This document shows positions 53,464-56,346 of a DNA stretch of 64,000 nt, in pieces. Below the pieces are notes generated by a model, which did no database searches, was not told the DNA's origin, and saw only the letters and a list, made by a program, of their open reading frames with translations. Every line of letters begins with the position of its first letter. The first letter of the stretch is position 1. Made by a program: the position numbers and the translations under genes. Origin of the DNA: Flavobacterium sp. (lineage in GTDB: Bacteria; Bacteroidota; Bacteroidia; Flavobacteriales; Flavobacteriaceae); the NCBI GenBank assembly GCA_014377455.1, contig JACMPO010000243.1, positions 1 through 64,000 of the forward strand, read 5' to 3'.

Positions 53464-55134
53464 TTAAAATCCAACGGCTTTGTCATCGCCACGTTGGTCT
53501 GCTCCACCTTCGAGTTTTCCGTTTGGTAAAACCATAATAGCATCTACTTTTCCTATAACTGGAGCCGATTTTTCGTTAATATTATATCCTTTTTTAGTTA
53601 AATTTTCTAAAACTGATTTTGAGAATTTATTAGGTTCAAATAATACTTCGTCTGGTAACCATTGATGATGAAAACGTGGCGCATTTACAGCTTCTTGCAT
53701 TCCCATTTTGAATTCGTAAACATTTAGTATAGTTTGCAAAACGGATGTTATAATCGTAGAACCGCCAGGAGTTCCTAAAACCATAAAAAGTTTGCCATTT
53801 TTCTCAACAATTGTTGGTGTCATTGAGCTTAACATTCGCTTTTGAGGCGCAATACTATTAGCTTCCGCACCAACCAATCCATACGAATTTGGTACGCCAG
53901 GTTTTGCCGAAAAATCGTCCATTTGATTGTTGAAAAAGAAACCCAATTCCTCTGAATATAATTTAGAACCATAAGCGCCATTTAGCGTAGTTGTTACAGA
54001 AACTGCATTTCCATCAGCATCTACAATAGAATAATGCGTAGTTTCGTTACTTTCAGAAATTGAAATTTCTCCGTGATTGACATCAGTAGATTTTGTCGCT
54101 TTTTCCCAATTGAATGTTGCCATTCGTTGTTGCAAATATTTTTTATTCAACAGTTTCTTCTTCGGTATTTTAACAAAATCGGGATCGCCCAGAAAATAAT
54201 TTCTGTCTGAATAAGCTCTGCGTTCGGCTTCAGTAAGCAATTGAATGTATTTTTCAGAATTGTGTTGGTATTTTGAAACATCATAGCCAGAGATCATGGT
54301 CATAATTTGTTGTAAAGTCATTCCGCCACTTGATGGTGGTGCCATTGAAATGATTTTCAAGTCTTTATATTTGAAAGTAATTGGTGTACGCCATTTTGCT
54401 TCATAATTTGCCAAATCTTCTATTGAAATTATGCCTCCTTTCGATTTTAGAAATGAAACAATTTTTTCAGCCGTTTTTCCTTTGTAAAATTCGTCTTTGC
54501 CATTTTTCATTATTCTAGTTAAAGTTTCTGCTAAGGCAAAGTATTTTATGGTATCACCAACTTTTAAATTTTTAGAATATACCGTTTCAGATCCACTAAT
54601 TTTGATGATTTCTTGCTTGTTCGTGTTGATTTGTTTCACTTGTTTTTCGGTTATAATCACACCTTTTTTTGCTAATGCAATAACAGGTTTCATAATTTCT
54701 TCCATCAAAAGTTTTCCAAATTTTTTATGAACTTCAAATATTCCAGCAATAGTTCCAGGAACTCCAACTGCCAATGCGCCATTAACAGATAAATTTGGAA
54801 TTACAGTTCCATTTGCATCTAAATACATATTTTTGGAAGCCAATAATGGTGCTTTTTCACGATAATCGAGTGTGCCAATTTCACCGTTATTTTTTCTGTA
54901 AATCATGAATCCCCCACCAGCAATATTTCCAGCATACGGATAGGAAACGGCTAATGCCAATTCGGTTGCAACCATGGCATCAAAGGCATTGCCACCTTTT
55001 TGGAGGATTTCTATTCCGATTTTAGAGGCTTCTTCTCGTGCAGAAACTACCATTGCTTTTTGGGAAATTAATCTTGTTTGAGCAAATGACGTTATTGATA
55101 ATAACAGTAAAATGTATTTTAAGTTTAACCACAT
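53464..55134 (-). CDS. ggt: Gamma-glutamyltranspeptidase
   Basis: This 556-residue Ntn-hydrolase precursor has a signal peptide (MWLNLKYILLLLSITSFAQ). It cleaves glutathione and other gamma-glutamyl compounds in the periplasm or outside the cell. The motif AVSYPYAGNIAGGGFMIYR lies near residue 62. The autocleavage Thr is in SNETTHYSIVDADGNAVSVT (near residue 370), and GTPGGSTIITSVLQTILNV near residue 450 completes the site. The start codon lies inside the left arm of a 25-bp inverted repeat (55124-55148), so the promoter and first codons seem to be provided by the repeat element upstream. Confidence 0.92.
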   Translation of the reverse strand: MWLNLKYILLLLSITSFAQTRLISQKAMVVSAREEASKIGIEILQKGGNAFDAMVATELALAVSYPYAGNIAGGGFMIYRKNNGEIGTLDYREKAPLLASKNMYLDANGTVIPNLSVNGALAVGVPGTIAGIFEVHKKFGKLLMEEIMKPVIALAKKGVIITEKQVKQINTNKQEIIKISGSETVYSKNLKVGDTIKYFALAETLTRIMKNGKDEFYKGKTAEKIVSFLKSKGGIISIEDLANYEAKWRTPITFKYKDLKIISMAPPSSGGMTLQQIMTMISGYDVSKYQHNSEKYIQLLTEAERRAYSDRNYFLGDPDFVKIPKKKLLNKKYLQQRMATFNWEKATKSTDVNHGEISISESNETTHYSIVDADGNAVSVTTTLNGAYGSKLYSEELGFFFNNQMDDFSAKPGVPNSYGLVGAEANSIAPQKRMLSSMTPTIVEKNGKLFMVLGTPGGSTIITSVLQTILNVYEFKMGMQEAVNAPRFHHQWLPDEVLFEPNKFSKSVLENLTKKGYNINEKSAPVIGKVDAIMVLPNGKLEGGADQRGDDKAVGF

Positions 55135-55148
55135 AGAAACATAGATTT
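55124..55148. repeat. Inverted repeat, left arm (25 bp)
   Basis: Begins TTTAACCACATAGAAAC. It is an exact reverse complement of 55731-55755. It covers the first codons of ggt, whose ATG is at 55132-55134. Confidence 0.9.
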
Positions 55149-55257
55149 TATATTTAGAACGCTTCGCTATAATTAGAATAGATGTTCAAGCTAATTACAT
55201 ATAAACATAGATTTTTAATAAAGAAAAGACGCTTCGCTTTAATTAGATTTTTTACGA

Positions 55258-55666
55258 TTACTTTTCAGGAAGTTTTGAGAAAAATTCATTTACAAATGTT
55301 TTTTGTCCGTCTTTAAAAAGATTGTACGAATTAAAATTAATTAGAATTCCTTTAGGTTATTTTAATAATTCATATTATTTAATAATTGCACTTCAAAAAT
55401 AGGATGAATTTCTGAAACAAATTTTAGTTCAACAACAATTAATTCTTCTACAAATAAATCACATCTAAAATTCGATTGTAAAACTTTTCCTTTATAGATA
55501 ATTGGAATTTTAAGTTCGGTTTTATAATTTATTTTTCTGATATTTAAATCTTCTTCTAAACATTGTTGGTAAACACTTTCAAGCAAACCTGTACCTAATA
55601 TCTTATGAACTTTAATCGAGGCGCAATGATTTCGTAAGTTAATTCGTTCAAGTATTTTTTTGTCAT
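55258..55666 (-). pseudogene. Decayed GxxExxY-family gene
   Basis: The minus strand encodes MTKKYLNELTYEII, then shifts frame near 55620-55625, probably by loss of one base of a GG. It continues as ASIKVHKILGTGLLESVYQQ and DLNIRKINYKTELKIPIIYKG..LFVEELIVVELKFVSEI. A second one-base loss near 55368-55371 and a TAA near 55357-55359 follow. The frame then resumes as KGILINFNSYNLFKDGQKTF and ends FFSKLPEK at 55258. The parts together make a complete GxxExxY protein of about 130 residues. That family is related to PD-(D/E)XK nucleases, with the Asp and ELK motifs visible. Exact biological role of the family is not established. Confidence 0.85.
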
Positions 55667-55730
55667 AATTTTAAATAAATGTTTACTATTTAATCTATAT
55701 AAAGCGAAGAATCTTAATTATTTTAATTGC

Positions 55731-55755
55731 AAATCTATGTTTCTATGTGGTTAAA
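55731..55755. repeat. Inverted repeat, right arm (25 bp)
   Basis: Ends TATGTGGTTAAA; exact reverse complement of the left arm at 55124-55148. It lies six bases from the acpH stop codon. Confidence 0.9.
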
Positions 55756-55761
55756 AAAAAG

Positions 55762-56346
55762 CTATAATTCAAGTATTTTCTCTTTACAATGTAGACGTAA
55801 TTCTTCAAAAAACAACCTAAATTCTACTTCAAATTCTGCATAAAATTCTTGCACTTCTACAATCGCTTTTTGCATATTGGCTCTATGTTTGGTTCGGTAA
55901 TCCATTTGAAATAAAATCATTTCCAAACCTTGTAAAGTGGCATAACTTACCAACCAGTTTCTCTCAATCAAATATGGAAGCATTTTTTGTGTTTTTTCAG
56001 TAAGAATTTCATAATTATTTTGAAGTAATTTATAAAACTCATGGGCATAATCTTCTAATTTTTCATCGGAATAATTTGACCAATTTTTAGCCAAAAAATG
56101 ATCATAAACAATATCCATAATCACACCAGAATAATGCCCGTATTTTTCGTGCAAACGGTGTTTACTTTTTCGATAAATCGGATGCGCATCAGTAAAAGTG
56201 TCAATATATCGATGCAATAAAATTCCTTTTTTTACTTCGTTAGGAAAATTCAAATAATCAGTACCACGAATTCCATCGGCCATAAAATTGCCTATTTTCA
56301 TCATATCATTATTGCCCGAAAGATAAATATGTGCTAGAAAATTCAT
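55762..56346 (-). CDS. acpH: Acyl carrier protein phosphodiesterase, AcpH type
   Basis: This 194-residue protein of the DUF479/AcpH family cleaves the 4'-phosphopantetheine arm from holo-ACP. MNFLAHIYLSGNNDMMKIGN at the start, NFMADGIRGTDY and GILLHRYIDTFTDAHPIYRK (near residue 41) supply the conserved His and Asp residues of the HD-like metal site. MDIVYDHFLAKNW near residue 77 is also typical. Its 3' end runs into the inverted-repeat element. Confidence 0.9.
   Translation of the reverse strand: MNFLAHIYLSGNNDMMKIGNFMADGIRGTDYLNFPNEVKKGILLHRYIDTFTDAHPIYRKSKHRLHEKYGHYSGVIMDIVYDHFLAKNWSNYSDEKLEDYAHEFYKLLQNNYEILTEKTQKMLPYLIERNWLVSYATLQGLEMILFQMDYRTKHRANMQKAIVEVQEFYAEFEVEFRLFFEELRLHCKEKILEL

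Follow-up and report, generated by a model that had tools for sequence, protein, structure and literature searches.

Free-standing homing endonuclease genes are small, patchily distributed nuclease genes that remain faithful to a site within their target, and MITEs are short gene-free elements that share their inverted ends with rarer gene-bearing elements. In REPIN/RAYT systems, as set out in excerpts of two papers (PMC8049555, PMC3733652), the RAYT gene is flanked by inverted repeats that are also dispersed intergenically, RAYT-bearing genomes have more of these repeats, and the RAYT gene itself rarely moves. An excerpt of a third paper (PMC4990558) describes in Coxiella an S23 open reading frame within a 428-nt element, an intervening sequence of 23S rRNA, whose terminal inverted repeats form a 28-bp stem and which is excised by RNase III.

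Here we describe a comparable arrangement for GxxExxY, a common multi-copy protein family named after its motif alone: GxxExxY genes are enclosed by arrays in inverted orientation, in which a short unit, for the most part CRCARAG, recurs with a period of 8-12 nt. As far as those excerpts on REPIN/RAYT go, the likeness extends to a gene lying in inverted repeats, to dispersal of the same repeats, which are commoner in GxxExxY-bearing genomes, and to a gene that rarely moves. The differences are that GxxExxY has a predicted PD-(D/E)XK fold whereas RAYT is an HUH tyrosine transposase, that its repeats are short-period arrays whereas REPs are GTAG-tagged, and that there are several GxxExxY genes per genome as compared to one RAYT. 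With free-standing homing endonuclease genes the family shares a small, site-faithful and patchy nuclease-fold gene inside a candidate target, but its gene-free repeats are dispersed in large number and its cutting is putative. As with MITEs, short elements that lack the gene exist alongside less frequent gene-carrying elements, and both share the same type of inverted end; no transposase gene, however, was present in the GxxExxY elements examined. The 23S rRNA intervening sequence, as excerpted (PMC4990558), likewise combines small size with terminal inverted repeats that enclose a single small gene, but the GxxExxY element lies between protein genes, encodes another protein family and has dispersed repeats. 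We consider, at a probability of about 0.5, that GxxExxY, as a protein of PD-(D/E)XK fold, is in a REPIN/RAYT-like partnership with its repeats, and that the element described next is a decayed copy of this two-part system.

The window (the whole 64,000-nt stretch of Flavobacterium sp. DNA that was analysed) carries this element between protein genes and outside any rRNA gene. The downstream neighbour is ggt-like, presumably a gamma-glutamyltransferase (53464..55134, minus strand), and the upstream neighbour is acpH-like, which we take to be an ACP phosphodiesterase (55762..56346, minus strand); both read in the same direction as the GxxExxY gene. The first-pass annotation had described exact 25-bp inverted arms around a decayed GxxExxY gene, and this is confirmed: the ggt-side outer arm (55124..55148, minus strand), which contains the annotated ggt start codon (55134), is the exact inverse of the acpH-side arm (55731..55755, minus strand), which reads AACCACATAGAAACATAG toward the gene. 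The arms are 25 nt each, 100% complementary and 582 nt apart. Between them the gene (55258..55666, minus strand) is broken, its start, middle and end lying in three different frames with an internal stop; the family match spans 55362-55622, and the open reading frame of the middle part scores 74.3 bits against TIGR04256 (cut-off 35) and 70.6 bits against PF13366 (cut-off 22), the latter being the sole match of this partner gene at E 0.001. The repeated sub-motifs reported inside the ends are real, the ggt-side end being tandemly duplicated (52-nt copies at an offset of 66 nt, identity 71%; shorter 19-nt copies at an offset of 70 nt, identity 95%). The sub-motif ACGCTTCGCT.TAATTAGA occurs there twice (55159-55177 and 55229-55247, spanning 55159..55247, no strand assigned), a related stretch in inverted orientation is found at 55692-55726, and a degenerate inner copy of the ggt-side arm with 3 mismatches (55192..55213, minus strand) has surroundings that align with the sole ggt-side arm of an orthologous element, L031. 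Neither end of the window element outdoes shuffled sequence in folding (z 1.2 and 1.3).

Comparison with other genomes places this element in a wider setting. Among the 29 best other loci from a search of 150 genomes, the ggt-like and acpH-like genes nearly touch, without an insert, in 24, so that the empty sites which the first-pass annotation had asked about in relatives were found and the insertion is polymorphic; the flanks of these empty-site relatives are too diverged for placing the element ends in a check for target site duplication. One further genome (L031) has the same element at the same site with an intact GxxExxY gene, and, L031 included, intact genes of the nearest subfamily lie within the same arm type in two genomes other than the window's, once at the same site and once at another. 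In its own genome the arm core (22 nt, up to 3 mismatches) occurs at three places, all in the window element (the two arms and the inner degenerate copy). The possibility that the arm occurs only here thus holds within its own genome but not in the genus, where the arm type is present in 128 of 249 genomes (123 of the 205 with GxxExxY vs 5 of the 44 without). The exact arm is nevertheless rejected as a defining feature, because a second GxxExxY gene in the window's genome has different arms (91% complementary over 32 nt) and the variant changes from locus to locus; the window arms are one dialect of the wider short-period array pattern.

That GxxExxY genes are repeat-bounded holds in the genus and far beyond it. 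In a test for inverted repeats with 500-nt flanks, none of 100 dinucleotide shuffles equalled the window locus, and the same holds for 24 of the 32 GxxExxY loci tested; when the flanks were 200 nt and the shuffle was cruder, the test was positive in 57 of 71 GxxExxY loci vs 2 of 48 control window ORFs. Orientation is biased: arrays upstream forward, upstream reverse, downstream forward and downstream reverse numbered 26, 2, 1 and 26 at 32 genus loci, 17, 2, 2 and 21 at 39 further genus loci, and 52, 14, 18 and 58 at 81 wider loci, among which opposite-orientation arrays thus also occur (14 upstream, 18 downstream). Of the 81 database loci, from several phyla, 68 had one or more arrays oriented as expected vs 0 of 139 control windows, and CRCARAG arrays were absent at 30 S23 loci and 49 window ORFs. 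CRCARAG arrays are missing from the expected place in 15 of the 39 further genus loci, most of which carry other arrays, and two loci (L175 and L187) have both orientations upstream only. Thirty genus loci (L036-L065) came from best-scoring matches, and loci L327-L366 (40) and L397-L456 (60) were hand-picked among the matches listed, which favours well-scoring copies; L327, at the same place as L062, was removed before the 39 loci were counted, and at least four contigs are common to the genus set and the 81-locus set (L127/L038, L131/L065, L136/L355, L141/L346).

The two arms of a locus co-vary (rho 0.87 and 0.84 over 64 loci), and the repeat unit differs between loci and between GxxExxY protein subfamilies, some of which associate with another dialect, at unrelated sites too. 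Across sites the dialect follows the subfamily in 65% vs 7% in shuffles, a comparison based on about 8 GATT sites in which the highest shuffle (67%) matched the observed mean, and from which 29 of 241 loci were left out as no single dialect was assignable. As repeat dialect is tied to protein subfamily, comparison alone allows one to search for a recognition code.

A further correction to the first-pass annotation is that arrays far outnumber GxxExxY genes and mostly lack one. Across the 249 genus genomes there are 4634 strict arrays vs 61 of the reversed pattern, and 824 GxxExxY matches in 205 genomes; the genes' own arms would explain about 267 of the 4634, so that we reject, for the genus, the explanation that the arrays are merely those arms. 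Starting from arrays (n=30), a GxxExxY gene lay within 800 nt at 1 locus, the detector classing 7 as palindromes, 22 as single arrays and 1 as gene-bearing; two gene-free palindromes fold better than shuffles (z -4.3 and -2.8). The annotation had also raised the prospect of arms everywhere without GxxExxY genes: gene-free arms do occur, but array number depends on the gene across genomes. The median is 6 strict arrays per genus genome with GxxExxY (205) vs 0 without (44), and the rank correlation is 0.58 with genome size partialled out. In the rest of the phylum, to which the count outside the genus is confined, the median is 3 with the gene (146 genomes) vs 0 without (176), and the mean 9.0 vs 0.8, part of the 9.0 being own arms, given 0.74 strict hits per sampled gene locus. 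Relatedness was handled in these counts via genome size and, outside the genus, via family only; arrays were higher with GxxExxY in 17 of 21 families and ran the opposite way in 4, and in one family (f1) the means did not differ (1.1 vs 1.1). There are exceptions in the genus, with zero strict arrays in 23 of the 205 genomes with a GxxExxY match and some arrays, to a maximum of 21, in 18 of the 44 without. GxxExxY-bearing genomes are thus strewn with gene-free arrays, suggesting a role of the protein in spreading or maintaining the repeats.

GxxExxY is predicted to be a small single-domain protein of PD-(D/E)XK nuclease fold. R60, D62, E72 and K74 are invariant across 63 sequences, and the predicted model (pLDDT 95.9) aligns best in VIA-align with 4ic1 (SSO0001; Z 10.3, 98 residues, rmsd 3.5) and also with the archaeal Hjc 1gef (Z 7.7, 84 residues, rmsd 2.9); many nucleases lie at Z 6-8, a common range according to the tool's note, and only 4ic1 stands clear. 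The fold is thus like that of PD-(D/E)XK nucleases of known structure, although a shared fold is no proof of function, and a PDB sequence search found no related chain at E up to 1. In our proposed reading the protein most likely recognises its own repeat as a palindrome or hairpin and would then nick or cut it, with repair or replication of the cut repeat making copies at other intergenic places and keeping both arms of the locus alike, much as RAYT proteins act on REPINs. One part of the system would be the GxxExxY gene between inverted arrays of the short-period repeat and the other the dispersed gene-free copies of that repeat; the gene moves rarely, and repeats drop to near-chance numbers where it is absent.

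GxxExxY genes mostly stay at old sites, where they are often lost or broken. Where a site cluster comprised three or more loci (109 loci in all), the nearest protein relative lay at the same site for 95 (identical proteins excluded; 235 of 241 loci kept, L378 having been removed at a contig edge before the 241-locus set). No two gene-bearing loci at different sites, among the 241, exceeded 83% DNA identity over 300 nt, these loci and site clusters gave no sign of recent gene copying, and no case of array insertion was captured to the exact base. Of the proposal that GxxExxY genes travel as compact cassettes, the repeat boundaries stand, but active travel lacks support and travel of the gene is rare, and a simple transposon cassette is weakened by this site fidelity and by the lack of near-identical gene copies elsewhere. 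Fidelity together with patchy presence would suit a homing-type element, in which the array surrounding the gene is the recognition sequence of its product, and the nuclease cuts gene-free alleles in other cells so that repair copies the filled form, with gene-free palindromes as targets or remnants. The window site, empty in 24 of 29 relatives and filled in one more genome, would fit, as would the hemW-cyclase site (site A), where filled, palindrome-only and empty alleles coexist: of 90 loci 21 hold the gene, 16 have an array but no intact gene, and 53 lack both; 10 are palindromic without an intact GxxExxY gene. The sample was 90 of the 98 best-scoring genomes listed (222 have a match), eight being left out (G116, G065, G137, G014, G135, G125, G131, G047), at least two of which (G065, G125) have a GxxExxY match beside the site. 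A quick site A tree gives at least 18 changes of gene presence, a figure that may be overstated as it comes from a quick search with a fragment of about 130 residues. We regard homing as unlikely to be the explanation, however, since alone it leaves unexplained why a genome has gene-free arrays by the dozen or the hundred, in numbers that track gene presence, and site fidelity is equally explained by vertical descent with frequent loss; moreover, most gene-free site A alleles are without a strict array, and so the array is not always the empty form.

Alternatively, the arrays might be hairpins multiplied and homogenised by host replication and repair, with GxxExxY genes just tolerated inside them. 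Template switching would homogenise arms, the gene is missing at 29 of 30 array-first loci, and S23 and GIY-YIG genes also lie in inverted repeats. We find such hitchhiking improbable: among 101 genus genomes with S23 counts, array number correlates at 0.56 with GxxExxY vs 0.21 with S23, repeat type is tied to gene family and subfamily, and the motif is retained beside the gene across phyla; this S23 control, the locus tests and the dialect match all weaken it in its pure form. A role at the RNA level, modelled on the rRNA intervening sequence with its S23 gene, would make the palindrome a processed hairpin in operon transcripts, the protein acting on RNA or the hairpin protecting the host operon. 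The gene is co-directional with its host genes at all 21 filled site A loci and in the window, and the excerpted Coxiella element, with its terminal inverted repeats, is excised by RNase III (PMC4990558). Against this, an Rfam search at the gathering threshold gave no match in 12 loci, including L005, which holds the window element, the unit's sequence is conserved over phyla beyond a stem's needs, and both the predicted fold and the D/ExK residues match the DNA-nuclease type, so that we judge this very improbable.

The association of GxxExxY with repeats found no description in open PMC full text (subscription papers and preprints being outside this scope). Open PMC papers naming GxxExxY, as far as their retrieved portions go, do not treat repeats; open PMC text on PF13366/PDDEXK_3 is unrelated, as are the vertebrate papers in which array strings occur, and none combines at least three of GxxExxY, four helix bundle protein, GIY-YIG nuclease family and repeat. 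Through the association the family gains a candidate substrate and a mechanism open to testing; its copy number may find a reason here, and a class of unnamed intergenic repeats would be accounted for. More tentatively, and on balance doubtfully, GxxExxY, S23 four-helix-bundle and GIY-YIG proteins, though unrelated, may each directly read and copy their own repeat dialect in many phyla with no transposase of a known class, palindrome-owner proteins then being general and GxxExxY being a nuclease-fold owner of one such dispersed repeat population. Should S23 and GIY-YIG genes, which are likewise located in inverted repeats, behave alike, gene-repeat partnerships beyond RAYT transposases would be common.

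We note that the flanks of 32 GxxExxY loci of the genus carry inverted arrays of the 7-mer CRCARAG (CGCAAAG, CACAGAG, CACAAAG and others), with spacers mostly of 2-4 nt between units. With a detector that accepts two units 9-12 nt apart, with at most one mismatch altogether, in 300-nt flanks, upstream forward, upstream reverse, downstream forward and downstream reverse arrays were found at 26, 2, 1 and 26 of these loci and at 17, 2, 2 and 21 of 39 further genus loci. The same detector found no CRCARAG array at 30 S23 loci, at 49 window ORFs or in the whole 64-kb window, whose arm has degenerated too far for it to pick up. In a wider set of 81 loci (80 from named genomes and one viral contig) the four classes numbered 52, 14, 18 and 58; at least one array in the expected orientation, upstream forward or downstream reverse, was present at 68 loci and both at 42, as compared to 0 of 139 control windows 1.5 kb away, and for the 62 records not labelled "Flavo" the corresponding numbers were 52 and 32. 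By title the records include Tolypothrix, Anabaena, Nostoc, Planctomycetota, Acidobacteria, Spartobacteria, Treponema and Methylobacter, several of them being MAGs in which binning errors are possible; the Acidobacteria and Spartobacteria records have both array orientations upstream and none downstream. Among 64 loci with at least two exact units per side, the share of G correlates from arm to arm at unit positions 2 (rho 0.87) and 5 (rho 0.84), a likeness that could come from recognition by the protein, copying between the arms or common origin.

The number of arrays goes with the gene. Across 249 genus genomes the strict pattern, CRCARAGNNCRCARAG with zero mismatch, has 4634 copies and its reversed control 61; the genes' own arms would make up about 267 of the 4634 (0.32 strict matches per locus). 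The 205 genomes with a GxxExxY match have a median of 6, a mean of 22.3 and a maximum of 256 strict arrays (23 have none), as compared to 0, 1.5 and 21 in the 44 without a match (26 have none). Among genomes of 2.0-4.3 Mb the means are 6.7 (n=141) and 1.5 (n=42), and the partial rank correlation between GxxExxY and array number, with genome size controlled, is 0.58; where S23 was also counted (101 genomes), this correlation reaches 0.56 for GxxExxY as compared to 0.21 for S23. Outside the genus 322 genomes were compared, of which 146 score above the GxxExxY cut-off and 176 do not: the mean is 9.0 with the gene and 0.8 without, the median 3 and 0, and the control pattern mean 0.35 and 0.47. Of 21 families holding both kinds, 17 have the higher mean in genomes that carry the gene (sign test p 0.007, p values for arrays and gene being inexact since the genomes are related), no difference being seen for the window's family in this sample. 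The window's genome, with two GxxExxY genes that are both broken, has zero strict arrays. Separately, G135 and G095 of the genus and G562, G291 and G381 of the phylum lack a GxxExxY match but have 11-21 strict arrays; a lost gene, an incomplete assembly (completeness is 85% for G135) or some other driver may be the cause.

Of the 39 further loci of the genus, 15 show no CRCARAG signal of the expected orientation. At most of these, inspection by eye and local alignment reveal different inverted arrays, which accompany particular protein subfamilies: a CACAGATTAAAA-type array with subfamily ETYKIIGICMEVHRNLG, a CGCAGATTT-type array with subfamily IRGAIFKVY, and a CGCAAAG variant of 8-nt period with a DVSYKIH-like subfamily, array signals being weak or one-sided at L338 and L364. 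In a test set of 241 loci (127 site clusters; 12 of the proteins contain a stop), the label CRCARAG could be given to 193 loci and GATT, a second dialect, to 19. When each site was reduced to a single representative, a GATT locus had another GATT locus as its nearest protein neighbour from a different site in 65% of cases (50% in the lowest draw) as compared to 7% in shuffles (top of 10,000 values 67%), a test carried by about 8 independent GATT sites.

As for the protein, R60, D62, E72 and K74 are invariant in 63 intact sequences, as are G19, E22 and their neighbours in the name-giving motif, whose Y is nearly so; among 80 named-genome loci 73 copies are stop-free, and a loose RxD...ExK-like motif occurs in all 73. 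For an AlphaFold2 model (mean pLDDT 95.9), Foldseek returned no PDB match at E 0.001 or better, the top entry being 4ic1 (SSO0001). VIA-align gave Z 10.3 over 98 residues (rmsd 3.5) for 4ic1, followed at Z of about 8 or lower by many nuclease-fold chains, including Hjc (1gef, 7.7), in a list that also holds some unrelated-looking chains.

The window's element fits the description in the first-pass annotation: its arms at 55124-55148 and 55731-55755 are exact and inverted 25-bp repeats, the gene between them is confirmed as GxxExxY and is decayed, its coding signal being split over three frames with a stop, and the repeated sub-motifs inside the ends include a tandem duplicate at the ggt side. 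The inner ggt-side copy is degenerate and aligns with the ggt-side arm of the orthologous element L031, so the outer copy, a perfect match to the opposite arm, is probably the younger addition. The GxxExxY gene and its neighbours, which we take to be acpH-like and ggt-like, share the minus strand. The listed ggt ORF begins, at 55134, within the outer arm, which thus supplies its start codon, and for this reason the insertion may have replaced the original beginning of ggt; ggt starts in other genomes differ from the window's. The window's genome has a second GxxExxY gene (L004, G000:C246, 1172-1712), which is also broken and whose arms are related to those of the window but not the same (TTAACCACAAAAGGCACAAAA, 32 nt, 91% complementary). 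L004 also has, at 84-314 near the contig end, a 21-nt tandem repeat in degenerate form, with 8 copies in register.

A ggt search of 150 genomes of the genus found a match in 76, and the best 30 loci, the window's own included, were examined. In 24 of the other 29 acpH lies directly upstream of ggt at an estimated -9 to +48 nt, the gap in the window being 628 nt, and a GxxExxY match at this place is absent from all 29; empty sites, which the first pass had proposed to look for, are therefore present in relatives. Outside this sample, G200 has an intact GxxExxY between acpH-like and ggt-like genes, with the window's arm type (L031), so the insertion probably predates the window's species and, while intact elsewhere, is decaying here. 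G055 carries an intact gene of the same subfamily and arm type at a different site (L025), adjoining a presumably alaS-like gene. The proteins of L031 and L025 share 58% and 61% identity with that of the window over 84 residues, and no other protein compared exceeds 52%.

Searched as a 22-nt core with at most 2 mismatches, the window's arm occurs in 128 of the 249 genus genomes, with up to 90 copies per genome and 3 matches in total for the reversed control; genomes that match GxxExxY have it in 123 of 205 cases, the others in 5 of 44 (Fisher p 2.6e-9). Across the genus it is thus not confined to this element, and it does occur apart from GxxExxY genes, though mostly in genomes that have a match; arms confined to this place, or present everywhere without the gene, had been set against the original proposal. 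That arm pairs flank GxxExxY genes holds for 2 of 30 arm loci fetched (L006-L035), namely L025 and L031, and fails for 19, which are gene-free palindromic elements with an inverted partner 53-154 nt away; at 9 the scan used detected no partner. By eye, an internal sequence near TTGATAGTCCAATTCTTGG lies beside the gene in L031 and its complement in some gene-free elements. Among 30 loci found by their array, one per genome, GxxExxY lies within 800 nt in 1; the detector gave 7 palindromes and 22 single arrays, a degenerate partner being visible by eye in some of the latter.

At the site between what we take to be hemW and a cyclase gene, 90 loci were examined from 222 genomes with a match. GxxExxY is present at 21 (arrays on both sides at 15, on one at 4, on none at 2), an array without an intact gene at 16 (10 palindromic, of which L089 has an apparent gene remnant, and 6 one-sided), and neither at 53. 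All 21 genes are co-directional with the host genes, and a quick tree of the neighbouring gene requires at least 18 changes of gene presence. Within site clusters of at least three loci the nearest protein relative is at the same site for 95 of 109 loci (shuffle mean 4), and copies at different sites reach 83% DNA identity at best; the gene therefore moves between sites rarely, and the repeats look more mobile. Of the earlier proposal that GxxExxY travels as a repeat-bounded cassette, the bounding is supported (68 of 81 loci), while travel of the gene is rare, given these same-site relatives.

Architecture, orientation bias, depth and dependence together speak for a GxxExxY protein acting on its own repeat. 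The strongest rival is a homing-type cycle for the element, and such a cycle and repeat dispersal could act together. In its apparent working (dispersal, dependence, low gene mobility) the system resembles REPIN/RAYT; an excerpt of PMC8049555 describes RAYTs as vertically inherited, single-copy genes and REPINs as more numerous where the gene is present. The GxxExxY partner is, however, not an HUH transposase, which places the system outside REPIN/RAYT membership. A gene with its own dispersed repeats is already known; the protein class is what is new here, and no account of the GxxExxY-repeat association turned up in searches of the open PMC full-text library. By analogy with the S23-bearing intervening sequence of Coxiella, an RNA-level case in an excerpt of PMC4990558, an RNA-level role may explain the toleration of operon insertions.

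The four-helix-bundle S23 (TIGR02436) genes are also enclosed by inverted arrays of short period, but of different kinds (CTAAG/CTGAG, CAAAGG, CTTAGA and others; L096-L125). An inverted-repeat test was better than all shuffles at 22 of 30 S23 genus loci, and CTRAG triple arrays occur upstream at 9 and inverted downstream at 9 of the 30, as compared to 0 and 2 of 71 GxxExxY loci. Three of the first 30 hemW-cyclase loci have a GIY-YIG-like gene, identified by Pfam (PF01541) in L076 and by eye in L088 and L092. Inverted TGCTGAAC...GTTTCAGCATC repeats surround this gene, and the palindrome they form occupies the site where other genomes have GxxExxY or a palindrome.
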